Shown piece by piece: positions 137 through 27,540 of a stretch of 64,000 nt of DNA. Source of the stretch: Streptomyces sp. NBC_00341 (GTDB taxonomy: Bacteria; Actinomycetota; Actinomycetes; Streptomycetales; Streptomycetaceae); assembly GCF_041435055.1 (NCBI RefSeq), contig NZ_CP108002.1, positions 1,054,001 to 1,118,000 of the forward strand. The letters run 5' to 3'. Below the pieces are notes generated by a model. The model was given only the letters and a program-made list of their open reading frames with translations, did no database searches and was not told where the DNA came from. Within the stretch, counting starts at the first letter, position 1. The number at the start of each line of letters is the position of its first letter. The translations under genes were made by a program, and so were the position numbers.

Positions 137-153
137 GTCCCACTGGCCGGGAC
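137..153. promoter_or_regulatory. 17-bp palindrome, copy 1 (candidate IclR-type operator)
   Basis: GTCCC-actggcc-GGGAC is a perfect 5+5 inverted repeat with a 7-base centre. It lies 74 bp upstream of the start of the partial dehydrogenase at 1-63. It is the best-conserved of seven related copies found at promoters of the steroid cluster. Confidence 0.6.
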
Positions 154-173
154 GGCTCCGGCCGCCGGCCGGG

Positions 174-1721
174 TCAGCGGCCCTCGCGCGCCAGGTGGCG
201 GACGGCGAGGGAGGCGAAGACCATGGCGCTGCCGAGGGGAACGCCGGGGCCCGGATAGACCCGGCCGGTGAAGGACGCGCTGGTGTTCCCGGCCGCGTAC
301 AGGCCGGGGAGGGGGCGGCCCTCCCGGTCGAGGACGCGGGCGTGGGCGTCCGTGCGCAGTCCGCCCTTGGTGCCGAGGTCCGCGAGGACCAGCCGGGCCG
401 CGTAGTACGGCGGCCGGTCGAGCGGGACCAGGCACGGGTTGGGTCCCGGGGCGTTCCCTGCGGCGAAGAACAGGTCGTAGGGGTCCTCGCCCCGGTGGTG
501 GTCCTCGTCCCTGCCGGTCGCGGCGAAGCCGTTGAAGCGGGCGACGGTGTCCGTCAGGGCCTGGGCGGGTACGCCGATGAGCGCGGCGAGCCCCGACAGC
601 GAGTCGGCCCGCACCCAGGCACCGGCGGCCAGTTGCCGCGCGGGGTCCGCGGGCGGCACGGTGATGGCGGGCAGGGCGCCGCCCTCGCGGGAGTCGAAGA
701 CCAGGTGGACGGGTGTGTCCGCGCCCCGGGCGGCCATGGCCCGGCCCATCCGGTCGTACGGCAGCGACTCGTTGGCGAACCGCCGCCCAGAGCCGTCCAC
801 GGCCAGGCCGCCGCGCAGCCCGAGGGTGAACGCGGCCGTGCTGTCGGGGAGTTCGGTACCCGGGCACCACCAGGCCTCGTCCATGAGAGCGGTGCCGGCA
901 CCGGCCTCGACGGCGGCCCGCAGTACCTCTCCGGTGTTGGTGCCCCGGGGCGCCATGCTCCAGCCGGCGCCGCCGGGCACCCGGTGCTCGGTGCGCAGGG
1001 CGTCGTCGCCCTCGAAGCCGCCCGCGGCCAGCAGCACCCCGCGCCGGGCCCGTACCCGGACCGTGCCGTGCGCCGTGCGCGCCTCGACTCCGGTGACCCG
1101 GCCCTCCTCCGTGACCAGCCCGGTCACCCGGTGGCCGGTGCGGACCCGGGCGTTCCCGGTCCGGGTGGCGGCCAGCAGCAGGCGGCCGATGAGGGCGCGG
1201 CCCGCGCTCAGCGGTGCGTCGGGGTGGCCCAGGCCGGCGCGGTCCCGGCCGACCGCCGGGCGTACCAGGGGCAGCAGTTCACCCAGCAGCCCGGGCGCCA
1301 GGTCGAGCGGTACGAAGGAGCGCCCGGCGTCCATCCGGCCGGGGGCCGCGACGTAGTCGGGGAAGGCACGCCACTCGAACGCGATGGCGGGGTCGGCCTC
1401 CAGCCGGGCCACCAGTTCGGGGGCGTGCCGCAGGAAGGCCTCCCGGCGCTCCGCCTCCGCGTCACCGGTCAGGGCCCGCAGGTAGCGGCGCGCGGCCTCG
1501 GTGGAGTCGTCGAGACCGGCCCGCTCCTGCACCTGGGTGCCGGGCAGCCAGCAGGCCGCCCCGGAGTAGGCGGAGGTGCCGCCGAGCAGCGCCGTCCGTT
1601 CCAGTACGACGGTGTCGAGGCCCTCCCCGGCGGCCGCCAGCGCTCCGGTCAGCGCTCCCGCGCCGGACCCGACGACGATCACGTCGTGGGTGGCGTCCCA
1701 TTCCTGCCGGCCGTCCCGCAT
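174..1721 (-). CDS. FAD-dependent 3-ketosteroid delta1-dehydrogenase-like protein (second KstD)
   Basis: A 515-residue flavoprotein. The dinucleotide-binding motif GSGAG is at residues 18-22. The C-terminal KstD signature (PPYYAARL followed by DLGTKGG) is at about residues 437-454 and includes the tyrosine and glycine used for catalysis in KstD. A second conserved tyrosine is in ESLPYD. The start at 1721 is chosen because GGAGG lies just upstream and the flavin-binding strand follows closely. KstD introduces the C1-C2 double bond in ring A of 3-ketosteroids. The window also holds a more canonical kstD at 24779, so this one may act on a different intermediate, or be a related FAD fumarate-reductase-type enzyme. 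It is divergent from the TetR gene, with a shared regulatory gap. Confidence 0.7.
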   Translation of the reverse strand: MRDGRQEWDATHDVIVVGSGAGALTGALAAAGEGLDTVVLERTALLGGTSAYSGAACWLPGTQVQERAGLDDSTEAARRYLRALTGDAEAERREAFLRHAPELVARLEADPAIAFEWRAFPDYVAAPGRMDAGRSFVPLDLAPGLLGELLPLVRPAVGRDRAGLGHPDAPLSAGRALIGRLLLAATRTGNARVRTGHRVTGLVTEEGRVTGVEARTAHGTVRVRARRGVLLAAGGFEGDDALRTEHRVPGGAGWSMAPRGTNTGEVLRAAVEAGAGTALMDEAWWCPGTELPDSTAAFTLGLRGGLAVDGSGRRFANESLPYDRMGRAMAARGADTPVHLVFDSREGGALPAITVPPADPARQLAAGAWVRADSLSGLAALIGVPAQALTDTVARFNGFAATGRDEDHHRGEDPYDLFFAAGNAPGPNPCLVPLDRPPYYAARLVLADLGTKGGLRTDAHARVLDREGRPLPGLYAAGNTSASFTGRVYPGPGVPLGSAMVFASLAVRHLAREGR

Positions 1722-1792
1722 GGGGTGCCCCTCCTGCCGCTCGGTGGTGTGGGGCCCAGCAGACCCGCTCCGGGGCGGCGGGCGCGGGGCCG

Positions 1793-1809
1793 GTCCCGCT
1801 GACCGGTAC
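1793..1809. promoter_or_regulatory. 17-bp palindrome, copy 2
   Basis: GTCCC-gctgacc-GGTAC, one mismatch from the perfect palindrome. It sits in the 173-bp gap between the divergent KstD-like and TetR genes, 72 bp upstream of the first start and 86 bp upstream of the second. Confidence 0.55.
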
Positions 1810-1894
1810 GGCGGGGCGGACGGCACCTGACGCGGAACCGGGCCCGGCGTATTGTCTGAGGCGCCGTTGACATCCGAGCGCCGGGAGGGAGAGC

Positions 1895-2506
1895 GTGCCC
1901 AGAATCGCCGAGGCCAGAGCGGGGGCCGAGCCCACGTCACCCCGGCAGCGCGCCCGCCGTCAGAGCATCCTGAGGGTGGCGGCGGACATCGCCGCTTCCA
2001 CGGGTCTGGAACGGGTGCAGATGCACGAGGTGGCCAAGTCCGCCGGGGTTGCCATCGCCACCCTGTACCGGTACTTCCCGTCCAAGACCCACCTCTTCAC
2101 CGCCCTGATGGCCGACCAGATCGAGGGGTTCGCGGCCCGGGTGCCCGAGCGCGCGCCCGGCACCTCGCCCCAGGACGCGGTCTTCGAGACGCTGGGCAGC
2201 GCCACCCGCAATCTGCTGCGCCGGCCGGCCCTCGCCACGGCGATGATCCAGTCCGCGAACGCCGCCCGTGCCACGACCGTCCCCGACCTGGCGCGGATCG
2301 ACTCGGGTTTCCTGGATCTGCTGCTGCGGGCATGGGGCGTGGAGCGGCCCACCGACCACCACATCACCAGGCTGCGGCTGCTGATCCTGCTCTGGTACGG
2401 GGTTCTGCAGTCCCGGCTCAACGAGCGGCTCACTCCTCAGGAGGCCGACGCCGATCTGCGGATGGCGTGCCATCTGCTGCTGGCTCCCGGGCCGGAGACC
2501 GGCTGA
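1895..2506 (+). CDS. TetR-family regulator, KstR-like
   Basis: A 203-residue TetR-type repressor. The N-terminal helix-turn-helix is at about residues 41-66 (VAKSAGVAIATLYRYF then PSKTHL) and closely resembles KstR, the cholesterol-regulon repressor of mycobacteria, which releases DNA on binding a steroid CoA thioester. The C-terminal ligand domain is all-helical and poorly conserved, as usual for the family. The gene diverges from a KstD-like gene and opens the steroid cluster, which supports a role as its local repressor. Two KstR-box-like sites (3560-3577 and 17693-17710) are candidate targets. The KstR assignment rests on the DNA-binding half and on context; another steroid-responsive TetR protein is possible. 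Confidence 0.7.
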   Translation: MPRIAEARAGAEPTSPRQRARRQSILRVAADIAASTGLERVQMHEVAKSAGVAIATLYRYFPSKTHLFTALMADQIEGFAARVPERAPGTSPQDAVFETLGSATRNLLRRPALATAMIQSANAARATTVPDLARIDSGFLDLLLRAWGVERPTDHHITRLRLLILLWYGVLQSRLNERLTPQEADADLRMACHLLLAPGPETG

Positions 2507-2516
2507 CCCGGCCCGG

Positions 2517-2549
2517 TGGGCGGCGCGCGGTCCGTGCGGGCGCCGCCCA
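2517..2549. terminator. Hairpin between convergent genes
   Basis: A perfect 10-bp stem (TGGGCGGCGC / GCGCCGCCCA) with a 13-base loop lies in the 48-bp gap between the convergent TetR and dehydrogenase genes. It probably terminates both. There is no T tract, as is usual in GC-rich actinomycetes. Confidence 0.55.
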
Positions 2550-2554
2550 TCGGT

Positions 2555-3481
2555 TCACGAGGTGCGCTGGGTGCCCGTCGTATCGAGTCCGGCGACGCTG
2601 TAGGCGGCGTAGCCGCGGTGCGGGTCGCGGCCGCTGAAATACGGCGTCAGCCGGGCGTCGAGCTCCTGCGGGGTGAACGTGCCGTCGGCGGCGGTGAACT
2701 TCTCTTCCACGGTGGGCGGGGCGAGCAGCGCGACCATGTCGCCGTAGACGACGAAGACCTGTCCGCTGATGCGGTCGGCGGCCGGTGAGGCCAGGTGCGC
2801 GACGAGCGTGGCGACCCGCTCGGGGGCCATGATGTCCAGGCCGTCCGGCGCCGGTACGCCCGCGGCGAAGGCGTCGGCGGTCATGGCGGTGCGGGCGCGC
2901 GGGCAGATCGCGTTGGCGCGCACCCCGTACCGGGCCAGCCCCTGTGCGGTCGCCAGGGTCAGCGCGGTGATGCCGGCCTTGGCCGCGGAGTAGTTCGGCT
3001 GGCCGGGGGCGCCGAACAGGAACGCCTCCGAGGAGGTGTTGACCACGCGGCCGTAGACCGGGGCGCCGGATGCCTTGCTCGCCGTGCGCCAGTGCACGGC
3101 GGCGGCGCGCGACAGACCGGCGTGGCCCTTGAGGTGGACCCGGATGACATCGTCCCAGTCCGACTCGGTGAGGTTGAACAGCATCTTGTCGCGGAGCACT
3201 CCCGCGTTGTTCACGACGATGTCCAGGCTGCCGAAGCTCTCCACGGCCGCCCGCACCAGTCGGTCACCCATGGACCAGTCCCCGACGTCGCCGGTGACCG
3301 CCACCGCCTCGGAGCCGAGGGCCTTGATCTCGGCGGCCACGTCACCGGCCGACGGGCCGACGTCGTTCACCACCACCCGGGCGCCGAGCGCCGCCAGTGC
3401 CAGGGCCTCGGCGCGGCCGAGCCCCGCTCCGGCACCGGTGACGACGGCGGTACGCCCCTCCAGGATGTTCGTCGCGCTCAT
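2555..3481 (-). CDS. Short-chain dehydrogenase, Hsd4A-like
   Basis: A 308-residue short-chain dehydrogenase. It shows the nucleotide-binding motif TGAGAGLG, the NNAG motif, and the catalytic serine plus YSAAK tetrad. The start at 3481 precedes the GRTAVVTGAG strand directly and has an upstream GAAAGAGG. It has the length and N-terminal layout of actinobacterial Hsd4A/Rv3502c-type enzymes, which act on the 17-hydroxy or side-chain beta-hydroxy group in steroid breakdown. That is family knowledge rather than something visible here. It follows hsaE after a 94-bp gap holding its own palindromic operator-like site, so it may have its own promoter. Other steroid or fatty-acyl SDR substrates remain possible. 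Confidence 0.7.
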   Translation of the reverse strand: MSATNILEGRTAVVTGAGAGLGRAEALALAALGARVVVNDVGPSAGDVAAEIKALGSEAVAVTGDVGDWSMGDRLVRAAVESFGSLDIVVNNAGVLRDKMLFNLTESDWDDVIRVHLKGHAGLSRAAAVHWRTASKASGAPVYGRVVNTSSEAFLFGAPGQPNYSAAKAGITALTLATAQGLARYGVRANAICPRARTAMTADAFAAGVPAPDGLDIMAPERVATLVAHLASPAADRISGQVFVVYGDMVALLAPPTVEEKFTAADGTFTPQELDARLTPYFSGRDPHRGYAAYSVAGLDTTGTQRTS

Positions 3482-3559
3482 GCTGCCTCTTTCCGTGTTC
3501 CGTCGGACCGATGGATACGGGGCGCGGTGCACGGATGTCCGGGGTGCGCCCCGGCCGCC

Positions 3560-3577
3560 GAAACTAGTATCAGTTTC
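3560..3577. promoter_or_regulatory. Palindromic KstR-box-like site
   Basis: GAAACT-agtatc-AGTTTC, a perfect 6+6 inverted repeat, lies 79 bp upstream of the Hsd4A-like start and overlaps the end of hsaE. It is strikingly AT-rich for this genome. It shares AAACTAG-n-AT-nn-GTT with the site at 17693-17710, so both may bind the same TetR-type regulator. Confidence 0.5.
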
Positions 3578-4391
3578 AGTTCTGTGGCCGGGGCTGTCCC
3601 GTTGAGTGGACGAAGGCGGCCGAGACGGAGCCGAGACCCTCGAACTCGGCCCGGAACTCGTCGCCCGGCCGCACGTCCACCGCCCTGGTGCACGAGCCCG
3701 GCAGGATGATGTGGCCCGCCTCCAGCGTCACGCCGTACGACGCCACCGTGCGGGCCAGCCAGGCGACGGCCTCCGTCGGGTCACCGAGCACCGCGCTGGT
3801 GTTGCCCCGGGCGATCTCCGCACCGTCCCGGTACAGCACCGCGGCGATGCCGGCCGGGTCCAGGCCGGCCGGGCGGACCCGGGCGGCGCCGAGGATCACA
3901 CCGGCGGACGACGCGTTGTCCGCGATGGTGTCGGCCAGCCCGATCCGCCAGTCCTTGATGCGGCTGTCGATGAGTTCGAGGCTGGGCACGATGTACTCGG
4001 TGGCCGCCAGGACGTCCGCCGTCGTGCACCCCTCCCCCGGCAGGCTCCGGCCCAGTACGTACCCGATCTCGACCTCGATCCGGGGGCTGCAGTAGCGGTC
4101 GGTGGCGATGGGGGTTCCTTCGGGCAGCACCATGTCGGAGAGCAGGTGGCCGTAGTCGGGTTCGTCCACGCCCATCATCCGCTGCATGACCTTCGACGAC
4201 AGTCCGACCTTGTGCCCGCTGACGGTGCGGCCCCCGGCCAGCTGCCTGCGGATGTTGATCAGCTGGATCCCGTAGGCGTCGGCCGCGTCGATGGACGGGT
4301 AGCCGGTGGTCAGCGGGTCGACGGGGGTCCGGTCGCGCTGTGCGGCCCACAGCACTGCGGCGGCCTCGGCGCGCCGGGCGGCGTCAAGCAT
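3576..4391 (-). CDS. hsaE: 2-hydroxypenta/hexa-2,4-dienoate hydratase HsaE
   Basis: A 271-residue member of the fumarylacetoacetate hydrolase/2-keto-4-pentenoate hydratase family. Family signatures are present: SGHKVGLSS in the N-terminal third, the acidic metal-site stretch RIEVEIGYVLG, and LELIDSRIKDW. It hydrates the dienoate released from ring A by HsaD to a 4-hydroxy-2-oxo acid, which HsaF then cleaves. It is the last gene of the operon that starts with the fadD17-like ligase. Its start overlaps the end of the preceding MaoC gene by 8 bp, so the two are translationally coupled. hsaE is therefore separated from hsaF and hsaG, which sit about 17 kb away in another operon. Confidence 0.88.
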   Translation of the reverse strand: MLDAARRAEAAAVLWAAQRDRTPVDPLTTGYPSIDAADAYGIQLINIRRQLAGGRTVSGHKVGLSSKVMQRMMGVDEPDYGHLLSDMVLPEGTPIATDRYCSPRIEVEIGYVLGRSLPGEGCTTADVLAATEYIVPSLELIDSRIKDWRIGLADTIADNASSAGVILGAARVRPAGLDPAGIAAVLYRDGAEIARGNTSAVLGDPTEAVAWLARTVASYGVTLEAGHIILPGSCTRAVDVRPGDEFRAEFEGLGSVSAAFVHSTGQPRPQN

Positions 4392-5262
4392 CCTGGATCT
4401 CCTTCTGGGCGGCGGTGGCGGTCTCGGAGGCGGTTTCGGTCTCGGTGTCGCCGGCGGTGGCGAATCGGGCCCGGCCGCCGGTGAGCACGGTGCGCCCGTC
4501 CTCCGCGCTCACCTCGAAGCGCGCGGCGGGGCCGTGAGCGGCGTCGCTCCAGCCGTGCACGGCGAGCCGCTCGCCGGGGAAGACCGGGGCCGCGAACCTG
4601 GCCTCCAGCTCCACCAGGGCGGCGGGGTGCGCGCCGAGTTCGCCGGCGAGCGGCAGCAGGCTCGCGGCGAGCGTGCACAGTCCGTGCAGGAAGGGCCGGT
4701 CCATCCCCGCGGCCCTGGCCGCCGCCGGGTCGATGTGCATGGCGTGCCGGTCGCCCAGCAGCCGGTAGAGCGCCGCCTGCCGGGAGTGCGTGAGCACGCT
4801 CAGGGCGTACTCGGCAGGCCGGTCCGGGCGGCGCGGGGCCGCCGGTCCGCGGGCGCCGCCGAAGCCGCCGGCGCCGGGGGCGAAGAGCGACCAGGTCGCC
4901 GTGAAGTACGCGCAGGACACCTCCACGTCGAAGACGGCGGCCGACCCCTTGTCCCGGACCCGGGCGACCCGCGCCGACGTGGTCAGCTCGCCCGACGGCT
5001 CCAACGGCCGCTTCACCAGCAGGTGCTGGCCGCCGTGCACGGCGGTGGTCACGTCGAAGGCGCCCAGCGCGCCGAGCGCGTCGGGCGCCCACTGGGCGAG
5101 GGTCAGCGCGAAGGTGGGCAGCACCCGCAGGTGCTCCTCGTAGACCAGGTCGAGCCGGTCCGCCGGTGCGCCGACCGCGAGCGCGTAGAGGATCGCGTCG
5201 CGCGCGGTGAAGGAGACCGTACGGGTGCCGAGTTCGCGGCCCTCCCAGGGGGAGGCGGTCAT
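4384..5262 (-). CDS. MaoC-like enoyl-CoA hydratase (Hsd4B/Rv3538-like)
   Basis: A 292-residue double-hotdog hydratase. The second hotdog carries the hydratase-2 active-site motif D-x4-H (GDRHAMHID, near residue 170) followed by a conserved FLHGL helix. The N-terminal hotdog looks non-catalytic. Length and layout match the (R)-specific hydratases of steroid side-chain beta-oxidation in actinobacteria. The start overlaps the ltp2 stop as ATGA, and its stop lies inside the hsaE start. The last about 20 residues are threonine/alanine-rich low complexity. A paralogue with a canonical GDLNPLH motif lies at 13383, so the two probably serve different chain-shortening cycles. Confidence 0.8.
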   Translation of the reverse strand: MTASPWEGRELGTRTVSFTARDAILYALAVGAPADRLDLVYEEHLRVLPTFALTLAQWAPDALGALGAFDVTTAVHGGQHLLVKRPLEPSGELTTSARVARVRDKGSAAVFDVEVSCAYFTATWSLFAPGAGGFGGARGPAAPRRPDRPAEYALSVLTHSRQAALYRLLGDRHAMHIDPAAARAAGMDRPFLHGLCTLAASLLPLAGELGAHPAALVELEARFAAPVFPGERLAVHGWSDAAHGPAARFEVSAEDGRTVLTGGRARFATAGDTETETASETATAAQKEIQDA

Positions 5263-6443
5263 CGGTCGGCCCCCAGGATCAGACCGCTGGTAGGGACTCC
5301 GGTGCCGGCGGTGACCATGACGTGGTCGGCCCGGTCCGGCTGGTTGACCGAGGTGCCCCGGATCAGCCGGACGCCCTCCGCGATTCCGTTCATTCCGTGC
5401 AGATACGCCTCGCCCAGCTGCCCGCCATGGGTGTTGAGGGGCAGCCGGCCGCCGAGCTCCAGGTGGCCGTCGGCGATGAAGTCCTTGGCCTCGCCCGGCT
5501 CGCAGAAGCCCAGCTCCTCCAGTTGGGGAAGGACCAGCGGGGTGAAGTGGTCGTAGAGCACCGCCGCGTCGACGTCTGCGGGCCCGAGCCCGCTCTGCCC
5601 GTACAACTGGCGCCCTACCAGGCCCATTTCCGGGATGCCGGTGATGGTGGGCCGGTAGTAGCTGGTCATCATGTGCTGGTCGGCACCGAGTCCCTGTGCG
5701 GCCGAGCGGATCACGGCGGGCGGCCGGGGAAGGTCGCGGGCCCGTTCGGCGGAGACGATCACCAGGGCCTGGCCGCCGTCGGTCTCCTGGCAGCAGTCGA
5801 GCAGCCGGAGCGGTTCGGCTATCCAGCGGGAGTCGCGGTGGTCCTGGAGGGTGATGGGCCGGCCGTGGAACCAGGCGGCCGGGTTGTTCGCGGCGTGCTT
5901 GCGGTCCACCACGGCGACCCGGCCGAAGTCATCGGTGGTGGCGCCGTACTCGTGCAGATAGCGGCGGGCGAACATGGCCACCCACTGGGCGGGGGTGCTC
6001 AGCCCGAACGGGGTCATCCAGGCGTAGGCGGCCCGGTCCGCGGTGGTGTCCATGGGCCGGTCGGCCTGCCCGAGCCCGTACCGCTCGCCGGACCGCTCGT
6101 TGAACGCCCGGTAGCAGACGACCACTTCGGCGATCCCGGTGGCCACGGCCATGGCCGCCTGCTGCACCGTCGCGCAGCCGGCCCCGCCGCCGTACCCGAT
6201 GCGGGAGAAGAACGTCAGATCGCCCATCCCGGTGTTGCGGGCCACGTGGATCTCGGAGTTGGTGTCCGCGGTGAAGGTGACCAGCCCGTCGACGTCGCGG
6301 GGTTTCAGCCCCGCGTCGGCGAGGGCGGCGAGCACGGCCTCGCAGGCGAGCCGGAGTTCGCTGCGGCCGGAGTTCTTGGAGAACTCGGTGGCGCCGATCC
6401 CGGCGACGGCGGCCGCCCCCGACAGCCCCGTCGGCGTACTCAT
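5259..6443 (-). CDS. ltp2: Ltp2-like steroid side-chain retro-aldolase (thiolase fold)
   Basis: A 394-residue lipid-transfer-type thiolase-fold protein. The opening (AAVAGIGATEFSK) and central GGAGCATVQQAAMAV are typical, and the usual thiolase catalytic cysteine context is not seen. Ltp2 cleaves the 17-hydroxy-3-oxo-pregnene carboxyl-CoA made by ChsH1/ChsH2, giving androstenedione-type product and propionyl-CoA. In characterised systems it needs the DUF35 domain of ChsH2. That partner is encoded three genes upstream in the same operon (8004-8966), which strongly supports the call. Both junctions are ATGA overlaps. Confidence 0.85.
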   Translation of the reverse strand: MSTPTGLSGAAAVAGIGATEFSKNSGRSELRLACEAVLAALADAGLKPRDVDGLVTFTADTNSEIHVARNTGMGDLTFFSRIGYGGGAGCATVQQAAMAVATGIAEVVVCYRAFNERSGERYGLGQADRPMDTTADRAAYAWMTPFGLSTPAQWVAMFARRYLHEYGATTDDFGRVAVVDRKHAANNPAAWFHGRPITLQDHRDSRWIAEPLRLLDCCQETDGGQALVIVSAERARDLPRPPAVIRSAAQGLGADQHMMTSYYRPTITGIPEMGLVGRQLYGQSGLGPADVDAAVLYDHFTPLVLPQLEELGFCEPGEAKDFIADGHLELGGRLPLNTHGGQLGEAYLHGMNGIAEGVRLIRGTSVNQPDRADHVMVTAGTGVPTSGLILGADR

Positions 6444-10173: not shown

Positions 10174-11853
10174 TCAGGGCAGGAAGCGCCCGCGTCCGGC
10201 GGCCAGGAACTCGCCGCGCAGCGCGGCCTTCTCGTCGTCGGTCATCAGCGTGTACACGGGCCCGCCGCGGCCGGCCCAGCGGTACACCGGGTCGTCGGTG
10301 CGCCAGCCTTCGAGCTGCATCTCCTTCTTGCGCAGCTTGTTGGAGCCGGTGGTGGGAAGCGCGTACGAGACGCGGACGAAGCGGGGGACGCTCTTGCCGC
10401 CCAGGTCCTCCTGGCGGGCCAGGAAGGCGGGCAGGTCCAGGTCCTCGAAGCGGGTTCCCTCCGCGATCTCGACGGCGGCCATCACCTGGTCGCCGGAGCG
10501 CGGGTCGGGCACACCGAAGACTCCGGCCGCCACGACCCCCCGGTGCCTGCGCAGGACGCGTTCGGTGAGCAGGGCGGAGGTGTTCTCGCCGTCGACCCGT
10601 ATCCAGTCGCCGGAGCGGCCGGCGAAGTAGAAGTAGCCGGCCCGGTCGACGTATCCGAGGTCGCCGGTCCAGTACCAGCCGTGCCGGACGCGTTCGGCGT
10701 TCGCCGCGTCGTTGTTGTAGTAGCCCTCGAAGCGGGCGGCGCCCTCGGTGTCGACGATCTCGCCGACGGCTTGTTCCGGGTTGCGGACCCGGCCGTAGGA
10801 GTCGAGCTCCGCGGGCGGGCAGGTCTCCCGGGTCCTGGGGTGGACGATGCGGACGCCGGTCCTGGCCGGTGTGCCGAGCGCGCCGGTGGGCGCTTCCGGG
10901 TCCCGTTTGAGCATGCCGCTGCCCTCGCTGGAGCCGTAGCCCTCGACGAGACGGCAACCGAAGCGCCGCAGGAACCGGTCCGCGTCCTCGGGGGACGCCT
11001 CTGTGCCGAAGGCGTGGGTGAGCCGGTTGTCGGCGTCCTGCTCGGTCTCCGGACGGGCCAGGACGTAGCCGATCGCCTTGCCGACGTAGGTGAAGTAGGT
11101 GGCCCCGAAGTGGCGGACGTCCGGGAGGAATCCGGATGCGGAGAACTTGCGGGTGAGGGCGATGGCGGCGCCCGCGGTGAGGGCGGGGGCCCACAGCGCC
11201 ATCAGCGCGTTGCCGTGGAACAGCGGCATCGGGCAGTAACAGGTGTCCTCGCGGGTGATGTCGTACTTGGCGCTGTTGGACGCGCCGAGGGCGGCGAGCC
11301 GGCCCTGGGAGCAGATCGCCGCCTTCGAGGCGCCGGTGGTGCCCGAGGTCAGGAGGAGCAGCATCCGGGTGGAGGCGGTGACACCGAGGGTGCGCACCGG
11401 CCGGGGGACGTCCGTGTGGCCGGCGAGGCCGGCCGCGTACTCCGGTGTGCCGACGACGAGGAACCGGTCGCGCTCCACACCGATGTCCAGACCGTCCAGC
11501 AGGGCGGCGCCCGCCGGGTCGGTGACGATCACCTGGCAGTCGGTGTGCCGTACCTCCCGGGCGAGTTCGGCGCCGCGCCGGGTGGGGTTGATGCCGACGA
11601 CGGCCGCGCCGGCGAGGGCCGCGGCGCCCAGCCAGAAGACGTACTCGGGCTCGTTGTCCAGGAGTACGCCGATGTGGAACGGCCCGTCGGCGCGCAGTTT
11701 CCGGGCCCAGCCGGCGCGGGCCGCGCTCTCCTGGACCACCTCGTCCCAGGTCCAGGAGCGGTCACGGGTCAGCAGTCCCGGACGCTCGTCCCCGCATCGG
11801 GCGAGCAGCAGGTCTGCGATGGTGTCGTGCGGCAACGTCGGTCCCTTCATCAT
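10174..11853 (-). CDS. fadD17: Steroid side-chain acyl-CoA synthetase, FadD17-like
   Basis: A member of the AMP-forming synthetase family, about 559 residues. Visible motifs are the P-loop LLLTSGTTGASKAA, GYGSSEG, and the YWTGDLGY and RSGDWIRVDGEN blocks with the hinge. FadD17 activates short steroid side chains as CoA esters. Resemblance extends to the GINPTRRGAEL and TYFTYVGKAIGYVLA stretches. Two adjacent ATG codons (11851-11853 and 11848-11850) are possible starts and neither has a strong ribosome site. A longer frame upstream to 11886 has no better signal. It is the first gene of the chs operon, with an operator-like palindrome 57 bp upstream. Confidence 0.82.
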   Translation of the reverse strand: MMKGPTLPHDTIADLLLARCGDERPGLLTRDRSWTWDEVVQESAARAGWARKLRADGPFHIGVLLDNEPEYVFWLGAAALAGAAVVGINPTRRGAELAREVRHTDCQVIVTDPAGAALLDGLDIGVERDRFLVVGTPEYAAGLAGHTDVPRPVRTLGVTASTRMLLLLTSGTTGASKAAICSQGRLAALGASNSAKYDITREDTCYCPMPLFHGNALMALWAPALTAGAAIALTRKFSASGFLPDVRHFGATYFTYVGKAIGYVLARPETEQDADNRLTHAFGTEASPEDADRFLRRFGCRLVEGYGSSEGSGMLKRDPEAPTGALGTPARTGVRIVHPRTRETCPPAELDSYGRVRNPEQAVGEIVDTEGAARFEGYYNNDAANAERVRHGWYWTGDLGYVDRAGYFYFAGRSGDWIRVDGENTSALLTERVLRRHRGVVAAGVFGVPDPRSGDQVMAAVEIAEGTRFEDLDLPAFLARQEDLGGKSVPRFVRVSYALPTTGSNKLRKKEMQLEGWRTDDPVYRWAGRGGPVYTLMTDDEKAALRGEFLAAGRGRFLP

Positions 11854-11909
11854 CCGGTCGCGGTCGCGAAGACCGACGCTAGCCACGGCAGGGCGGGCCG
11901 GCCGGGACG

Positions 11910-11926
11910 GTCCCGCTCACCGGGAG
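11910..11926. promoter_or_regulatory. 17-bp palindrome, copy 3
   Basis: GTCCC-gctcacc-GGGAG, one mismatch from the palindrome. It lies 57 bp upstream of the fadD17-like start, in the 95-bp gap before the chs operon. Confidence 0.6.
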
Positions 11927-16480: not shown

Positions 16481-17710
<1,230 letters not shown>

Positions 17711-17727
17711 GTCATAGGCAAGGCCCA

Positions 17728-17744
17728 GTCCCGCTCAGTGGCCC
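17728..17744. promoter_or_regulatory. 17-bp palindrome, copy 4
   Basis: GTCCC-gctcagt-GGCCC. It lies 87 bp upstream of the fadA5-like start, on the thiolase side of the divergent gap and next to the KstR-box-like site. The right half is weaker than in other copies. Confidence 0.5.
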
Positions 17745-17783
17745 GCCGCCTCGGCCGGGCCCGCCGCCTCGGCCGGGCCCGCC
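17741..17783. repeat. Short GC-rich tandem repeat
   Basis: An 18-bp unit (GCCCGCCGCCTCGGCCGG) occurs twice head to tail (17741-17758, 17759-17776), followed by a partial third copy to 17783. It lies in the middle of the fadA5/kshA divergent gap. It probably arose by slippage; no coding role is seen. Confidence 0.7.
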
Positions 17784-17822
17784 CCCTGGCCCGGTCCGGC
17801 AGCCGGGGCGTCAGTCGGGGCG

Positions 17823-17879
17823 TCAGATGTGGGATCCGCCGTCGGCCCGGATCTCCGCCCCGGTGAGGCAGGCCGCGTC
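17823..17879 (-). pseudogene. C-terminal remnant of a short-chain dehydrogenase
   Basis: A minus-strand frame ends with LTGAEIRADGGSHI and a stop. This is the characteristic C-terminus of short-chain dehydrogenases. Upstream of about 18 residues the frame has no SDR sequence and is interrupted by the kshA promoter region. I read it as a leftover of an SDR gene deleted when the divergent fadA5/kshA arrangement formed. It is too short to be sure. Confidence 0.5.
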
Positions 17880-17922
17880 CCACGGACCGGGACCGGGGCA
17901 CGACGGGCCGGCCGGGGCTCCG

Positions 17923-17939
17923 GTACCGGTCAGTGGGAC
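17923..17939. promoter_or_regulatory. 17-bp palindrome, copy 5
   Basis: On the minus strand this reads GTCCC-actgacc-GGTAC, the same right half as copy 2. It lies 78 bp upstream of the kshA start. The divergent gap thus has one copy near each start codon. Confidence 0.58.
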
Positions 17940-18016
17940 TTGCCGTCCCCGCCGCCGGCGTCCGCGCCTAGCGTCCGGAGCCGGAGACCGAGCGTCGCAA
18001 AGGGGATGAGAGCAAC

Positions 18017-19177
18017 GTGAGCGCAGTCGATTCGGCACACGACGACGTCAGGGCCATCGAAGCCACCGCGGCACCCACGCGTTTCGCACGCGGCTGGCAC
18101 TGCCTGGGCCTCGCGGAGAAGTACAGGGACGGCAAACCGCACCCGGTCCTGGCCTTCGGCCAGAAGCTGGTGGTGTTCCGGTCGGGCGACGGCACCCTCA
18201 ACGTCCTGGACGCCTACTGCCGCCACATGGGCGGCGACCTCTCGCAGGGCACCGTCAAGGGCGACCAGGTCGCCTGCCCGTTCCACGACTGGCGCTGGGG
18301 CGGCGACGGCCGCTGCAAGCAGATCCCGTACTCCAAGCGGGTCCCCCTGCGGGCCCGCACGGCGTCCTGGCCGGTGCTCGACCAGGACGGACTGCTCTTC
18401 GTCTGGAACGACCCGGAGGGCAACCCCCCGCCCGCCGGGGTGACCGTGCCCCGGATCGAGGGCGCGACGAGCGACGAGTGGACCGACTGGCTCTGGTACG
18501 AGACCACCGTGGACGCCAACTGCCGCGAAGTCGTCGACAACGTGGTGGACATGGCCCACTTCTTCTACGTCCACTACTCGTTCCCGACGTACTTCAAGAA
18601 CGTCTTCGAGGGCCACACCGCCACCCAGTACATGCACGGCACCGGCCGCCCCGACGCCCGCCCGCAGGAGCAGGGCGGCAAGCCGAAGACCACCGGCAGC
18701 GACTCGGTGGCCTCCTACCACGGCCCGTCGTTCATGATCGACGACCTCACCTACCACTACGACAGCGGCGATGTGGACTGCGTCCTGATCAACTGCCACT
18801 ACCCGGTCGACGCGAACCGCTTCGTGCTCCAGTACGGAATCGTGGTCAAGCGCTCCCCCACCCTGTCGGGCCAGGCCGCCGACGAACTCGCCACGAATAT
18901 GGCTCAGTTCATCAAGCTCGGCTTCGAGCAGGACATCGAGATCTGGCGGAACAAGGCGCGGATCGACAACCCGCTGCTCTGCGAGGAGGACGGTCCGGTC
19001 TATCAGCTGCGGCGCTGGTACGAGCAGTTCTACGTGGACGCCGCAGAGGTGCGGCCGGAGATGACCGACCGTTTCGAGTACGAGCTCGACACCACGCGCC
19101 CGGTCGAGGCCTGGCAGCGGGAGGTCGAGGAGAACCTCGCCCGCAGGGGCGCCGCCACCGAGGGCCGGCCGGTCTGA
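18017..19177 (+). CDS. kshA: 3-ketosteroid 9alpha-hydroxylase oxygenase KshA
   Basis: A 386-residue Rieske oxygenase. The Rieske cluster ligands are C68, H70, C87 and H90. The mononuclear iron site is at H181 and H186 (DMAHFFYVH) with a likely third ligand at D306 (FEQDIEIW). KshA with its reductase KshB hydroxylates C9, which together with KstD opens ring B. The start is a GTG at 18017 preceded by AGGGGATGAG. The family helix TYFKNVFEG is present. The gene for the reductase (kshB) lies in another operon at 23745. The next small gene overlaps the stop as TGATG. Confidence 0.92.
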   Translation: MSAVDSAHDDVRAIEATAAPTRFARGWHCLGLAEKYRDGKPHPVLAFGQKLVVFRSGDGTLNVLDAYCRHMGGDLSQGTVKGDQVACPFHDWRWGGDGRCKQIPYSKRVPLRARTASWPVLDQDGLLFVWNDPEGNPPPAGVTVPRIEGATSDEWTDWLWYETTVDANCREVVDNVVDMAHFFYVHYSFPTYFKNVFEGHTATQYMHGTGRPDARPQEQGGKPKTTGSDSVASYHGPSFMIDDLTYHYDSGDVDCVLINCHYPVDANRFVLQYGIVVKRSPTLSGQAADELATNMAQFIKLGFEQDIEIWRNKARIDNPLLCEEDGPVYQLRRWYEQFYVDAAEVRPEMTDRFEYELDTTRPVEAWQREVEENLARRGAATEGRPV

Positions 19178-19443: not shown

Positions 19444-19450
19444 GGAACGG

Positions 19451-20448: not shown

Positions 20449-20487
20449 GACTGTTCCTCCCTGAGGGGACGTGCTCCGGACGAGGCG

Positions 20488-21672: not shown

Positions 21673-21680
21673 GGCCGTTC

Positions 21681-22739
21681 TCACTTCCCCGGGGAGTTCT
21701 GGGCGGCGGTCGTGCTCCGGTCCCTCGCCGCGAGGGCGACCGCGATCTCGATGAGCTGGTCCTCCTGGCCGCCGACGAGCTTGCGGCGGCCGGCCTCCAT
21801 CAGGATCTCGGCGCCGGACACCCGGTAGGTGGCGGCCTGCCGGGCTGCGTGCTTCAGGAAGCTGGAGTAGACCCCGGCGTAACCCATCGTCAGGGACAGC
21901 CGGTCGAGCAGGCATTCGCCGTCCATGACGGGGCGCACCACGTCCTCGGCCGCGTCGATGATCTTGAGTACGTCGATGCCGGTACGGATGCCCAGCTTCT
22001 CCGCGACGGCGGCGAAGCCCTCGACGGGTGTGTTGCCGGCGCCGGCGCCGAACCTGCGGGTCGATCCGTCGATCTGCAGGGCCCCGGCGCGTACCGCGAG
22101 CACGGAGTTGGCGACGCCGAGGCCGAGGTTCTCGTGGCCGTGGAAGCCGACCTGTGCGTCGTCACCGAGTTCGGCGACCAGGGCGGCGATCCGGTCGCTC
22201 GTCTGCTCCAGGATGAGGGCGCCCGCGGAGTCGACTACGTACACGCACTGGCAGCCGGCGTCGGCCATGACGCGGGCCTGCCGGGCCAGCGCTTCGGGCG
22301 GGCTGCTGTGCGCCATCATCAGGAACCCGACGGTCTCCAGGCCGAGTTCGCGGGCGAGCCCGAAGTGCTGGACGGCGATGTCGGCCTCGGTGCAGTGCGT
22401 GGCGATGCGGCAGATCGAGGCGCCGTTGTCGGCGGCCTCGCGGATGTCGTCCTGGAGGCCCAGGCCGGGCAGCATCAGGAACGCGATCTTCGCCCGGCGG
22501 GCGGTCTTCACCGCGGCCTTGATGAGCTCCTGCTCGGGGGTGTGGCTGAAGCCGTAGTTGAAGGAGGACCCGCCGAGGCCGTCGCCGTGGGTGACCTCGA
22601 TGACGGGCACGCCCGCGTCGTCGAGTGCGGCGACGATCGAGGTGACGTGGTCGACGGTGAACTGGTGCTGCTTGGCATGTGATCCGTCCCGCAGGGACGA
22701 GTCGGTGACGCGGATGTCCAGCGCTGGGCTGTAGGGCAT
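21681..22739 (-). CDS. hsaF: 4-hydroxy-2-oxo acid aldolase HsaF
   Basis: A 352-residue DmpG/HsaF-type aldolase of the TIM-barrel family. The N-terminal catalytic motif [10 protein letters not shown] supplies arginine and aspartate. The metal site HGHENLG is near residue 200. HsaF splits the 4-hydroxy-2-oxo acid into pyruvate and an aldehyde, which is channelled to HsaG. It is directly downstream of hsaG (28-bp gap), as expected for the two subunits of this complex. Confidence 0.92.
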
Positions 22740-22767
22740 GGCTCGTGCACTCCTCGGTGAGCGGGGG

Positions 22768-23676
22768 TCAGGCGCCGGTGCGGCGGGCGGTGATCCGCCG
22801 GGCGAAGGCCTCGCCGGCCCTGGTCGCGGCGGCGGTCATGATGTCGAGGTTCCCGGAGTACGGGGGCAGGAAGTCGCCCGCGCCCGCCACCTCGATGAGG
22901 ACCGCCACCCGGGCGAGCCCGCCGCTGAGCGCACTCGGCACGTCGAACTGCGGCTCGGCGCGCAGCCGGTAGCCGGGCACGTAGGCGGCGACCTCGGCGG
23001 CCCGCTCGTGGATCGACGCGGTGACGGCGGCCCGGTCGACGTCGGCGGGGACGGCGCAGAAGACGGTGTCCTGCATCAGCATCGGCGGCTCGGCCGGGTT
23101 GAGGATGATGATGGCCTTGCCCCGGGCGGCGCCGCCGATCGTCTCGATGCCCCTGCTGGTGGTGAGCGTGAACTCGTCGATGTTGGCGCGGGTGCCGGGC
23201 CCGGCGGACGGCGAGGCGACACTGGCGACGATCTCCGCGTACGCGACCTCCGTGACCCGGGAGACGGCGTGCACGATCGGGATGGTGGCCTGTCCCCCGC
23301 AGGTGATAAGGGAGATGTTCGGCGCGTCGAGGTGTTCGCCGAGGTTGACGGCGGGCACGACGGCCGGGCCGATCGCGGCGGGGGTCAGGTCGACGGCCCG
23401 GATGCCGAGTTCGGCGTACTTGGGCGCGTTGGCCCGGTGGACATGGGCGGACGTGGCCTCGAAGACCAGGTCCGGCCGCTCCGCTCCGGCCAGCAGGGCG
23501 TCGACACCGTCGGCACCTGTGTGCAGGCCGTGGTCGGCGGCGCGTTTGAGTCCGGGGCTCTGCTCGTCGACGCCGATCATCCAGCGCGGCTCGATGACGT
23601 CCGAGCGCAGGAGCTTGTACATCAGGTCGGTGCCGATGTTGCCGGATCCGACGATCGCGGCGGTCGCCTTGGTCAC
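22768..23676 (-). CDS. hsaG: Acylating aldehyde dehydrogenase HsaG
   Basis: A 302-residue acetaldehyde/propionaldehyde dehydrogenase of the DmpF/BphJ type. It has the NAD motif GSGNIGTD at residues 10-17 and the nucleophile C126 (ITCGGQAT). It oxidises the aldehyde made by HsaF to an acyl-CoA. The start is a GTG at 23676 preceded by GATGAGG. It lies 68 bp downstream of kshB and upstream of hsaF. Confidence 0.92.
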
Positions 23677-23744
23677 TGTTCGAACCTCATCCGGGTCGAG
23701 TGAGTGGTACGGAGGGAAGAGAAGGGGAGAGGAAGGGCTGGGCG

Positions 23745-24782
23745 TCAGCCGTCGTAGGTGACGCGCAGCCGGTCGCTGACCGGGCGCGACTGGCAGGCGA
23801 GGATCAGCCCGTCGGCCAGGTCCCGCGCGTCGAGGACCTCGTTGCGCTCCATGGCCACCTCACCCTCGACGAGGAGACAGGCGCAGGCGCTGCAACTGCC
23901 CTCCCGGCAGGAGTACGGCGCGTCCAGGCCCGCGGCGAGCAGCACGTCCAGCAGCGGGGTGTCGCGGGGCCAGGAGACGGTGCGGCGGACCCCGTCGAGT
24001 TCCACCTCCGCCGTGCTGACGGGTCCGGCCGTGTCCCGCTCCGGGACGGGCGCCCGGTCCGCGAACGGGTCGCCGGACAGTGAGGTGAACCGCTCCACCG
24101 TGATCAGGCGCGGTGGCACGCCCAGTCCGGTGAGCGCGTCGATGGCCAGATCCATGAAGGGGCCGGGTCCGCAGACGAACGCGCGGCGCCCGGCGTACGG
24201 TCCGGCGAGGGCGCGCAGACCGGCTGCGCCGGGTCTGCCCCGGACGGACTCCAGCCAGTGCAGGACCGTGAGCCGGTCACCGTACTTTCTCTGCAGGGTG
24301 GCCAGTTCGTCGCGGAAGATCACGGACCGTTCGTCCCGGTTGGCGTACAGGAGGGTGACGGTGCCGGTTCCGGCGTGCAGGACCGAGGTGAGGATCGACA
24401 TGACCGGGGTGATGCCGCTGCCCGCGGCGAGCAGCAGGAAGTCGCCGTCGAGCGAGCCGGGGGTGAAGGTGCCCGCGGGCCGGAGCACCTCCAGGGTGTC
24501 GCCCTCGGTGACGTGGTCGCAGATCCAGTGGGAGGCATAGCCTCCGGCGGTGCGCTTGACGGTGACTTTCAGATACGGGTCGCGGACCGGGGAGCTGCAC
24601 AGCGAGTAGCAGCGGGCGGCTCCGCCGGGGCGGTCCGAGGGCACCCTGACGGTGAGGAACTGGCCCGGTTCGTAGCCGAACGCGTCCCGGTCGGCGTCGG
24701 CGGGCTCCAGGACCAGTGAGTGGGCGTCGGCCGTCTCCCGGATCACCTCGACGACGCGCACGGTCAGCGGGGCGGGGCTCAC
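23745..24782 (-). CDS. kshB: 3-ketosteroid 9alpha-hydroxylase reductase KshB
   Basis: A 345-residue ferredoxin reductase with three parts: an FAD domain (RCYSLCSSP), an NAD domain ([11 protein letters not shown] and CGPGPFMD), and a C-terminal plant-type 2Fe-2S domain. The cluster ligands are C292, C297, C300 and C330. It passes electrons from NADH to the KshA Rieske centre. The start codon is GTG and overlaps the kstD stop. In this organism kshB is grouped with ring-A genes rather than with kshA. Confidence 0.9.
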
Positions 24783-26485
24783 GACGGGCCTCCGGTGGCG
24801 CCGGACCGGGCGGCAGCGGCGGTACGGGCGGCGGCCGCGTGCCGGGCCGCGATGTAGCCGAACACGATGGACGGGCCGATGGTGGCGCCCGGTCCCGCGT
24901 ACTCGTTGGCCATCACGGACGCGGAGGTGTTGCCGGTGGCGTAGAGCCCGGCGATGGCCGAACCGTCCTCGCGCAGCACCCGGCTGTGCTCGTCGCAGAC
25001 GAGTCCGCCCTTGGTGCCGAGGTCACCGATCTCGATCCGGATCGCGTAGTAGGGCGCCCTGTCGAGCCGGTCGAGGTTGGGGTTCTTCAGTGTCGGGTCG
25101 CCGTAGTAGCGGTCGTAGGCGCTGTCGCCGCGACCGAAGTCGGTGTCCCGGCCGGATCCGGCGAAGGCGTTGAACCGTTCGACGGTGCCGGTGAGCGCTT
25201 CCTCGGGGACGCCGATCTTCCGGGCGAGCTCCGTGACGGTGTCGGCCCGGTGCACGGTGCCGTTCTCGTAGAACGCCCTGGGGAAGGGCATGCCGGGCAG
25301 GATCTGGGCGAACGGGTAGCGGGCGCGGGCCTTGGCGTCCATGACGAACCAGGCCGTGGTGTGCCCGCCCTCGATCTGATCGTGTACGAAGTTGACGTAG
25401 GGCGACGACTCGTTGGTGAAGCGCCTGCCGTCGCCGGAGACGATCACGGAGGGCGGGATGCACCGCTCGGAGACCAGCGGAATGGTGGCGCCGGCCGGAT
25501 GGCGCACGGACGGCATCCACCAGGCGTCGTCCATGAAGTCGAGCGCGGCGCCGAGTCCCTGGCCGGCGACGATGCCGTCGCCGGTGTTCTCGACGGCGCC
25601 GGCGCTGTGGTTCTCGCGGCCGCCCTCCGGCAGGTACTTCTCGCGCATCTCCTGGTTGTGGTCGAAGCCGCCGGTGGCGAGGAGGACGCCGTGCCGGGCG
25701 CCGATCCGCACGGCCGTGCCGTCCCGGTCGGCGACGATCCCGGTGACCCCGCCGTCCGCGCCGGTGACGAGCCCGGTCATCGGGGAGCGCAGCCGCAGCG
25801 GGACTCCGGCGTCCTTCAGGGCCATGCGCAGCCGGGCGACCAGGGCCCGCCCTCCGGTGGCCATGTGGCGGCGGGCGACCATATTGGAGGAGACCCGCCA
25901 TGCGGCGACCACGGAGGCCCAGCGGCCGCGCCAGGTCCGCTTGACCATGGCGAGGTCGCGGTAGTCCTTCGCGGTGATCCACAGTCCGAGCGGGCCCTTG
26001 AGACTGTTGGGCCGCTGGTGGCGCTCGTCGTCGCCGAGCTTGCGGGTGTCGAAGGGCAGCGCCTCGACGGACCGGCCGAGCGGGCGGCCCCCCTCGTACT
26101 CGGGGTGGTAGTCGGCGTAGCCCTTGACCCAGAAGAAGCGCATCCAGCGGCTCGCGCCGAGCAGTTCCATCGCGGCCGGTCCCTGGTCGACGTAGGCGTC
26201 GAGGCGGGCGGACGGCACCCGGCCCCCGGTGAGCCGGTCGAGGTAGCGGCGGACGGATTCCCGGCTGTCGTCGTGGCCCCTGGCTCGCAGGGTGGGGTTG
26301 TTGGGGATCCAGATGCCGCCGCCGGAGATGCCGGTGCTGCCGCCGTACCTCGCGCCCTTCTCGATGACGACGGTGGACAGTCCGCTGTCGGCGGCGGTCA
26401 GCGCGGCGGCCATGCCGCCCCCGCCGCCGCCGACCACGACGAAGTCGAACTCCTCGTCCCAGGTCTCCCCGGCCCCGGCGCTCAT
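24779..26485 (-). CDS. kstD: 3-ketosteroid delta1-dehydrogenase KstD
   Basis: A 568-residue FAD enzyme. The FAD motif VVGGGGGGMAAA lies at about residues 17-28. The active-site tyrosine pair APYYAIRI is at about residues 477-484 with DLGTKGG following. A further conserved tyrosine is in NESSPYVNF. It dehydrogenates ring A of 3-ketosteroids, triggering ring-B opening once KshAB has hydroxylated C9. It is coupled by ATGA overlaps to hsaD upstream and kshB downstream. Full length and all motifs make this the main KstD of the window. Confidence 0.92.
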   Translation of the reverse strand: MSAGAGETWDEEFDFVVVGGGGGGMAAALTAADSGLSTVVIEKGARYGGSTGISGGGIWIPNNPTLRARGHDDSRESVRRYLDRLTGGRVPSARLDAYVDQGPAAMELLGASRWMRFFWVKGYADYHPEYEGGRPLGRSVEALPFDTRKLGDDERHQRPNSLKGPLGLWITAKDYRDLAMVKRTWRGRWASVVAAWRVSSNMVARRHMATGGRALVARLRMALKDAGVPLRLRSPMTGLVTGADGGVTGIVADRDGTAVRIGARHGVLLATGGFDHNQEMREKYLPEGGRENHSAGAVENTGDGIVAGQGLGAALDFMDDAWWMPSVRHPAGATIPLVSERCIPPSVIVSGDGRRFTNESSPYVNFVHDQIEGGHTTAWFVMDAKARARYPFAQILPGMPFPRAFYENGTVHRADTVTELARKIGVPEEALTGTVERFNAFAGSGRDTDFGRGDSAYDRYYGDPTLKNPNLDRLDRAPYYAIRIEIGDLGTKGGLVCDEHSRVLREDGSAIAGLYATGNTSASVMANEYAGPGATIGPSIVFGYIAARHAAAARTAAAARSGATGGPS

Positions 26486-27351
26486 GCCGCGTCCGCGCGG
26501 GTGAGGAAGGCGAGGACCGCGCTCTCCCAGGCGGCCTTCTGTTCGATCATCACCCAGTGCCCGCAGTCGGGGAAGACGTGCAGTTCGGCGTCCGGAATGG
26601 TGCGCATCGGCAGGATCGACATGTCGAGCGGGCTGACCCGGTCGTCGCGGCCCCAGGTGAGCAGGGTCCTGGCCCGGAGGCGGTGCAGCATGGCCCAGTA
26701 CGGCGCCTCTCGGGACGCGGCGGCGTCGGCGGCTCGTGCGGCGGACGCCTCGCTGCCGTACATCAGCCGGGCACTGGCGAGGGTCTCCGGATCGGTGGCC
26801 TGCGCCCAGCGCTCCTCGATGAGTTCCTCCGTCACCAGGGACCGGTCGTGGACCATGGAGTTGAGCCAGCGGACCAGGCGCTCGCGGGTCGGTGCGTCGG
26901 TGAACTCCGTGAGCAGTCCGATGCCTTCGCCGGGCCCGGGGCTGTAGAGGTTGCGGCCGATGCCGCCGATCGTGACGAGGCGGCGTACCCGTTCCGGGTG
27001 GGCGAGCGCGAACCGGGTGCCGACGATGCCGCCCATCGAGTTGCCGATGATGTCGGCCCGCTGGATGCCGAGCCCGTCCAGGAACCGGGTCACGGAGGAG
27101 GCGGCCGTCGCCATCGGGTGGCCGTCGGCCGGGTCGCTGACGCCGAAGCCGGGGAACTCCAGGACGAGACAGCGGAAGTGCCCGGCGAACGCGGCGAGGT
27201 TGTGGCGGTAGTTGCGCCAGCCCGTGACTCCGGGGCCGGAGCCGTGCAACAGGAGCAGGGGCGGGCCGTCACCGGCCTCGTGGTAGCGCAACACGCCCTG
27301 GTCGGTCGCGAGTTCGCGCAGCGTGGAGTCGTGACTCAGCTCCGTCATCAT
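26482..27351 (-). CDS. hsaD: 4,9-DSHA hydrolase HsaD
   Basis: A 289-residue alpha/beta hydrolase of the meta-cleavage product family. The triad is S105 (GNSMGG), an aspartate near residue 237 (RDDRVSP) and H265 (CGHW). The oxyanion region LLLHGSGPG is at residues 33-41. HsaD hydrolyses the ring-cleaved steroid made by HsaC into HIP acid and the hexadienoate that goes to HsaE. Two adjacent ATG codons make the start uncertain by one residue. It is first in the seven-gene hsa/kst/ksh operon and diverges from hsaB. Confidence 0.9.
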   Translation of the reverse strand: MMTELSHDSTLRELATDQGVLRYHEAGDGPPLLLLHGSGPGVTGWRNYRHNLAAFAGHFRCLVLEFPGFGVSDPADGHPMATAASSVTRFLDGLGIQRADIIGNSMGGIVGTRFALAHPERVRRLVTIGGIGRNLYSPGPGEGIGLLTEFTDAPTRERLVRWLNSMVHDRSLVTEELIEERWAQATDPETLASARLMYGSEASAARAADAAASREAPYWAMLHRLRARTLLTWGRDDRVSPLDMSILPMRTIPDAELHVFPDCGHWVMIEQKAAWESAVLAFLTRADAA

Positions 27352-27455
27352 CCCTGCCTCGATTGGCCTCGGTGTTCGGTGGGTCCGGGCGGCCGTGGCT
27401 GCCGCGCCTTCGGTTCCTGGACGGTAGCCACGCGTCCCGGGGCGGCGCGGCGGAC

Positions 27456-27472
27456 GTCTCGGTGAGCGGGAT
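27456..27472. promoter_or_regulatory. 17-bp palindrome, copy 6
   Basis: Minus-strand reading ATCCC-gctcacc-GAGAC, with mismatches in the outer positions but the core intact. It lies 105 bp upstream of the hsaD start. Confidence 0.5.
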
Positions 27473-27523
27473 GCGGTCGCTCACGGGGCCGCCGGCGTGC
27501 TCGGAGGGGCTGCGCCGGGGGGC

Positions 27524-27540
27524 GTTCCACTGATCGGGAG
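27524..27540. promoter_or_regulatory. 17-bp palindrome, copy 7
   Basis: GTTCC-actgatc-GGGAG, 93 bp upstream of the hsaB start. With copy 6 it gives one site per divergent promoter in the hsaD/hsaB gap. Confidence 0.55.

Follow-up and report, generated by a model that had tools for sequence, protein, structure and literature searches.

Which protein reads a 17-bp palindrome that recurs ahead of the steroid genes of Streptomyces sp. NBC_00341, and with what effect on transcription? The question concerns 64,000 nucleotides of this 9.06-Mb genome (contig NZ_CP108002.1, positions 1054001–1118000; hereafter the window, whose own numbering is used unless stated otherwise), in which steroid genes occupy positions 174–28199 and a gene for an IclR-family regulator lies at 28269–29162. 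A first-pass annotation had taken the palindrome for the operator of a dedicated steroid regulon, with this IclR protein as the best candidate binder and a TetR protein as the alternative. The analysis reported here indicates that the palindrome is probably the binding site of the IclR protein, which would activate a regulon for steroids of the bile-acid type. The motif itself had been described previously; what is new is a strong computational case for the IclR protein at 28269 as the predicted binder, the two occurring together in many soil actinobacteria.

Palindromic sites in the window and in the genome

All seven palindromes of the first-pass annotation are present, at 137, 1793, 11910, 17728, 17923, 27456 and 27524, each with one to three mismatches to GTCCCRCTSASCGGGAC on its better strand. 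According to our own gene calls all are intergenic and lie, in this order, 73, 71, 56, 86, 77, 104 and 92 bp from the gene they face, in agreement with the 57–105 bp before a start codon given earlier (56–104 bp here). An eighth copy at 17877, GTCCCACGGACCGGGAC, was absent from the earlier list. It stands in the divergent gap 17642–18016, so that the proposed arrangement of one copy per direction in the divergent gaps describes 27352–27632 completely and 17642–18016 with the addition of this third copy. Four more copies, 20–22 kb to the left of the window, occupy two further divergent gaps (contig positions 1031450/1031534 and 1034236/1034327); the total for the genome is 12 sites, and the regulon extends about 22 kb to the left of the window.

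Direct computation shows how the sites cluster. With at most three mismatches, GTCCCRCTSASCGGGAC has 23 matches on the two strands of the window, compared with a mean of 7.47 in 100 shuffles (standard deviation 3.10, maximum 16), and chance alone as the origin of the sites is rejected by these counts together with the region comparisons given below. At the same stringency the whole genome yields 523 forward matches against 209 for a reversed control pattern, a large background, and raw pattern counts in 14 whole genomes amount to 14–54 matches per strand each, irrespective of a strong IclR match. As loose matches are this common, the match count alone is not the argument. Sites were scored with a matrix built from the 11 other sites of this genome (17877 being excluded) at a threshold of 15 bits, "intergenic" being defined by our own gene-calling script outside annotated records. 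A partial check of whether the motif is common at unrelated promoters gave six other intergenic sites of at least 15 bits in the stretches examined, none of them with a TANNNT box in register. A 15.4-bit match at 36496–36512 lies 50 bp before an acetolactate-synthase-like gene and likewise has no −10 box in register.

The centre of the palindrome had been described as conserved to the same degree as its arms. This is true of the T and the A on either side of the centre (1.71 bits, compared with 1.89 bits for the outer T/A); the remaining central columns carry 0.2–0.7 bits.

Co-occurrence of the IclR gene and the palindrome

The protein encoded at 28269 belongs to the IclR family (PF09339, 46.4 bits with a cut-off of 22; PF01614, 115.8 bits with a cut-off of 24) and falls short of the PcaR/PcaU/PobR subfamily model (TIGR02431, 102.6 bits with a cut-off of 284.75). 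Among 101 genomes of the genus, 20 encode a relative at E ≤ 1e-30. The regions of eight of these, the stronger matches, were examined, and in every one the relative (about 40–90% identity) is encoded in a steroid cluster, genes of which are preceded by sites. Public genomes provided at least 474 IclR loci, of which the best 80, each of about 20 kb, cover Streptomyces, Microbispora, Nonomuraea, Actinomadura, Saccharopolyspora, Nocardioides, Geodermatophilus, Amycolatopsis and others. At least five core steroid genes are found in 69 of these 80 loci and an intergenic site of at least 15 bits in 75, most commonly before hsaD-like (68 loci) and hsaB-like genes (56 loci); in 25 of the 80 a site precedes iclR itself. 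The 75 loci hold 226 matches, compared with a mean of 10.9 for 60 permuted matrices (standard deviation 26.0, maximum 171), a noisy control, since the motif survives largely intact in some permutations. Better controls are provided by the comparisons of regions and of KshA genes that follow. Among the loci listed, the paired sites in divergent gaps of the hsaB–hsaD type are 68–70 bp apart in some (window 27456/27524, L096 11599/11668, L104 12638/12708) and 39–40 bp in others (L118 11781/11821, L164 11685/11724).

Class-wide, 54 of 394 genomes encode KshA and 31 the IclR protein, and KshA is present in 30 of these 31. In set B, which consists of 20 IclR regions from 20 of the 31 IclR genomes, 15 regions have intergenic sites. 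The corresponding number is two in set A, 20 KshA regions from 19 of the 24 KshA genomes that were scored as IclR-negative, and again two in set C, 20 remote KshA regions from 20 IclR genomes. One of the two positive regions of set A, L253, carries an IclR protein of 44% identity; when it is counted among the IclR regions, Fisher's test gives a nominal value of 9e-8, which is too small because the genomes share ancestry. The KshA proteins point the same way. Where KshA is at least 66% identical to that of the window, 15 of 24 IclR genomes and neither of two others have a site no more than 400 bp away; for less similar KshA proteins the figures are one of 22 and one of 19 (two of 41 altogether).

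The form of the sites also resembles that of IclR operators. Compared with the published IclR group-1 consensus, GKTYCRYW3-4RYGRAMC (PMC8222616), the 12 sites have two to five mismatches (mean 3.3), an approximate rather than an exact fit, against a background mean of 9.7 mismatches with 0.28% of positions at four or fewer. In a clade with about 41–46% IclR identity, which was analysed separately as its sites mostly score 14.2–14.3 bits, under the threshold, the outer bases of the operator are changed (first base T in nine of nine sites, last base A or G), and the −10 box considered below starts at 31–32 bp in nine of nine. It could be argued that the motif is bound by some other regulator whose gene lies elsewhere, the IclR gene merely accompanying the cluster, all the more so as our comparison covered regulators inside the examined regions only. 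This is highly improbable: IclR persists in clades with as little as about 40% identity, changes in operator and spacing go with the IclR clade, iclR itself is preceded by sites in the 25 loci mentioned, and the motif fits the IclR consensus. Co-occurrence, the region tests and the consensus fit give good support to the IclR protein at 28269 as best candidate for the binder, and the IclR loci, the region comparisons and the same fit support the idea of a dedicated steroid regulon.

The TetR protein and KstR-type palindromes

The other binder proposed at first was the TetR protein of the KstR kind encoded at 1895–2506. Its gene adjoins the 1793 site, relatives with 37–42% identity occur in the clusters of three other genomes (G068, G014 and G091), and a KstR homologue has been reported in the cholate cluster of RHA1 (PMC8399759). 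Yet the 80 kb around the IclR gene of genome G070 contain no TetR relative, though sites are present, and such relatives are found in only four of the 20 IclR regions and four of the best 80 IclR loci, where loci of about 20 kb would miss a more distant gene; the TetR gene of the window being 26 kb away from that of IclR, the longer G070 region is the better witness. Furthermore, KstR-like palindromes are rare where the motif occurs (six in the 20 IclR regions, compared with 54 in the 20 IclR-negative and 67 in the 20 remote KshA regions), and the fit to the IclR consensus counts against TetR as well. KstR proteins recognise a different palindrome. The TetR protein is thus disfavoured, if less strongly than IclR is favoured, and binding of the 17-bp site by it is very doubtful. 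With the NCBIfam KstR model it reaches 100.4 bits, below the cut-off of 280, and is to be regarded as a KstR-like homologue only.

KstR-type palindromes do not recur at the promoters: in 148 kb including the window a single match with at most two mismatches was found, at 17697, to TAGAACNNGTTCTA, which we take to be the KstR consensus. Two KstR-like palindromes, TAGAATTTGTTCTC (17697–17710, with a similar counterpart in G070) and AGAACGCTGTTC (107–118), lie at or beside the −10 boxes of two regulon promoters, and added control by TetR is possible there. The genes controlled by the IclR protein would form a second actinobacterial steroid regulon beside that of KstR, and one largely exclusive of it.

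Promoter geometry and mode of control

At eight of the 12 sites of this genome a TANNNT box starts 29–30 bp past the palindrome. Among 398 gene-facing sites, a set that includes the 11 matrix-training sites of this genome, TANNNT starts at 30 bp in 92, at 29 bp in 30 and at 31 bp in 31, compared with a mean of 2.66 per offset; minor peaks at 87–89 and 98–101 bp fit paired sites. After removal of similar sequences (259 sites left), boxes at 29, 30 and 31 bp are found in 20, 48 and 14 cases, with 0.84 per other offset. An alignment of 81 promoters shows an excess of T and G directly before the −10 box; a −35 signal is absent (2.47 of 6 positions, compared with 2.38 after shuffling). Fixed spacing from site to −10 box and lack of a −35 box correspond to the pattern of activator-dependent promoters, with the reservation that 177 of the 259 sites have no strict box, and they suggest a site for an activator near −50 rather than a classical operator. 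If the first T of TANNNT is placed at −12, the palindrome would span −58 to −42, which is an activator's place.

The same site could be bound by the same IclR protein as a repressor, to be released by a steroid catabolite in the way KstR works. The known actinobacterial steroid regulators KstR and KstR2 are indeed repressors (PMC8399759), but the site, at a fixed spacing, stops about 30 bp short of the −10 box and hence upstream of the stretch in which it would obstruct RNA polymerase, and the promoters show no −35 signal. We consider repression unlikely and activation the likelier mode of control; the term operator, if used in the repressor sense, is probably wrong. For activation, we infer that a dimer of the IclR protein would bind the 17-bp site and, from this position, activate RNA polymerase at promoters that possess a TANNNT −10 box and no −35 signal. 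This would turn on CasI and other side-chain enzymes, kshA, kshB, kstD-like, hsaA–D and hsaF–G-like genes, as well as the transporter operon to the left of the window, presumably with a steroid ring catabolite as inducer.

Several observations weigh against binding of the palindrome and activation by IclR. Within the window no site stands ahead of iclR itself, four of the 12 sites of this genome have no TANNNT in register, and the strict box at 29–31 bp is missing from the majority of non-redundant sites, as given above. Cholate-type KshA genes lack a site in nine of 24 IclR genomes; no site of at least 15 bits was found in five of the 20 IclR regions and in five of the best 80 loci, one of them with a 73% identical IclR protein. 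Because of shared ancestry the genome counts are not independent, and the KstR homologue of the RHA1 cholate cluster counts on the same side.

The steroid gene cluster and its surroundings

Pfam domains identified between 174 and 28199 correspond to KshA, KshB-like, KstD-like and HsaA/B/C/D/F/G-like proteins, thiolases, acyl-CoA dehydrogenases, a ChsH2-like protein and CoA ligases (the main features are collected in Table I). HsaB, HsaC and HsaD match their own NCBIfam models below cut-off and are named by homology; the remaining Hsa names, taken from Pfam domains and from what we assume of these enzymes, are homology names only. The cluster looks to be of the bile-acid type, a reading suggested by the score of CasI, which passes the cut-off of its model. 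The cholate cluster of RHA1, reportedly described by Mohn in 2012, is the model for this reading. To the left of the window are found genes for an amidase, an old-yellow-enzyme-type oxidoreductase, an oligopeptide-type ABC (ATP-binding cassette) transporter and CoA-transferases, and for a second TetR protein that we presume to be KstR2-like.

Table I. Regulator genes, palindromes and two predicted target genes of the steroid regulon (window numbering, except for the second TetR gene)
Feature	Position	Strand	Remarks
IclR-family regulator, proposed binder	28269–29162	−	Pfam HTH_IclR and IclR_C; kept in steroid clusters with the motif
TetR-family regulator, KstR kind, rival binder	1895–2506	+	Pfam TetR_C_20; PDB 3bjb E 8.5e-65; KstR chains about 1e-19
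Second TetR gene	C1:1042807-1043343 (L032 12807-13343)		TetR_C_24 domain; left of the window, amid genes for acyl-CoA dehydrogenase and CoA-transferase
Palindrome	137–153	−	18.2 bits; faces minus-strand gene, start codon ending at 63; TACGGT box 30 bp past, 102–107
Palindrome	1793–1809	−	20.9 bits; 71 bp before KstD-like gene 174–1721, TetR gene opposite; no TANNNT in register on either side
Palindrome	11910–11926	−	20.2 bits; before casI; TAGCGT box 29 bp past, 11876–11881
Palindrome	17728–17744	−	14.7 bits; before thiolase operon (start 17641); TAGTTT box 30 bp past, 17693–17698
Palindrome	17877–17893	.	16.7 bits; beside remnant of deleted dehydrogenase gene; no −10 box in register
Palindrome	17923–17939	+	20.9 bits; before kshA; TAGCGT box 30 bp past, 17969–17974
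Palindrome	27456–27472	−	18.2 bits; before hsaD-kstD-kshB-hsaG-hsaF-hsaA-hsaC-like operon (start 27351); TACCGT box 30 bp past, 27421–27426
Palindrome	27524–27540	+	18.0 bits; before hsaB-like gene (start 27633); TAGCTT box 30 bp past, 27570–27575
kshA	18017–19177	+	Pfam KshA_C E 3.2e-94; target gene; unbiased bait in the class-wide search
casI, steroid-22-oyl-CoA synthetase	10174–11853	−	NCBIfam NF052587 967.8 bits, cut-off 900; target gene

The copy at 17877 is associated with the remnant of a short-chain dehydrogenase gene (17820–17893, between kshA and the thiolase gene), which ends with LTGAEIRADGGSHI and a stop codon; its counterpart in G070 is an intact dehydrogenase gene with its own palindrome in front. 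Further along the window, two genes for large nonribosomal peptide synthetases (2361 and 3807 residues, the first ending in a thioesterase domain) occupy positions 43638–62143.

Comparison with known systems

The first-pass annotation knew of no described steroid regulon with this operator. The motif is in fact already in print, without a proven regulator, as Lcin1, TCCCGGT[C/G]ACCGGGA, predicted in Nocardioides simplex VKM Ac-2033D before lithocholate-induced genes (PMC7593942). The two share the palindrome core with a central T[C/G]A and the location before bile-acid genes, a kshA ortholog and an hsaEGF-like operon (PMC7593942). The 12 sites described here, casI being among the targets, differ from the Lcin1 consensus at one to five of 15 positions. 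The authors suggest KR76_18060 as regulator and call for further work, and the available text of that study proves no regulator and gives no promoter geometry; two more genes are mentioned there, KR76_18040, possibly the ortholog of a regulator, and KR76_18045, a kshA ortholog that has an Lcin1 site (PMC7593942). As the IclR gene lies within about 1.3 kb of kshA in three genomes of a single genus, presumably Nocardioides (G143, G160 and G296), our guess is that KR76_18040 may be the N. simplex counterpart of the IclR protein. No further open-licence paper using Lcin1 in this sense was found.

The IclR group-1 regulators PobR and GenR bind 17-bp dyads with T(Y)C...G(R)A arms, PobR sharing the TSA centre and GenR the arm-N7-arm layout (PMC8222616); the present motif is richer in G+C, and a steroid regulon is unmentioned in the main text of that source (PMC8222616). 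By description only, SRTF2 of Pimelobacter simplex is a likeness, an IclR-family factor whose gene adjoins that of a ketosteroid dehydrogenase within an island induced by steroids and which is functionally uncharacterised in its source, as far as available (PMC7062782). Similarly, an IclR gene appears in the legend of a steroid pathway figure for Rhodococcus ruber Chol-4, where the RHA1 cholate cluster is present, and the accessible text gives no operator, target or function for it (PMC6498646). A cortisone study of N. simplex reports other motifs in the text available (PMC7807495), a study of Saccharopolyspora mentions neither IclR nor the motif in the corresponding parts (PMC9782250), and no IclR steroid regulon with this operator was found in the open-licence literature to the extent that its texts were available.

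A review describes what is known of bile-acid regulation as limited and anticipates that the several steroid clusters of RHA1 have controls of their own (PMC8399759). A named protein, a site and a promoter rule render the regulator question for bile-acid genes and Lcin1 testable and, if correct, would provide an activator responsive to steroids, of use in biosensors and strain design. KstR and KstR2 likewise control dedicated regulons for actinobacterial steroid genes (PMC8399759); they differ from the system proposed here in being TetR repressors. KstR3 of Mycolicibacterium neoaurum, also a TetR protein, represses an operon for the sterol side chain, and no motif is given for it in the text available (PMC10398937). 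We lean towards the view that one class of IclR activators, responsive to a catabolite of the steroid rings, acts at a fixed spacing of 29–32 bp on promoters that have no −35 box in cholate-type clusters of actinobacteria generally and would thus represent both the positive counterpart of KstR and the missing regulator of Lcin1.

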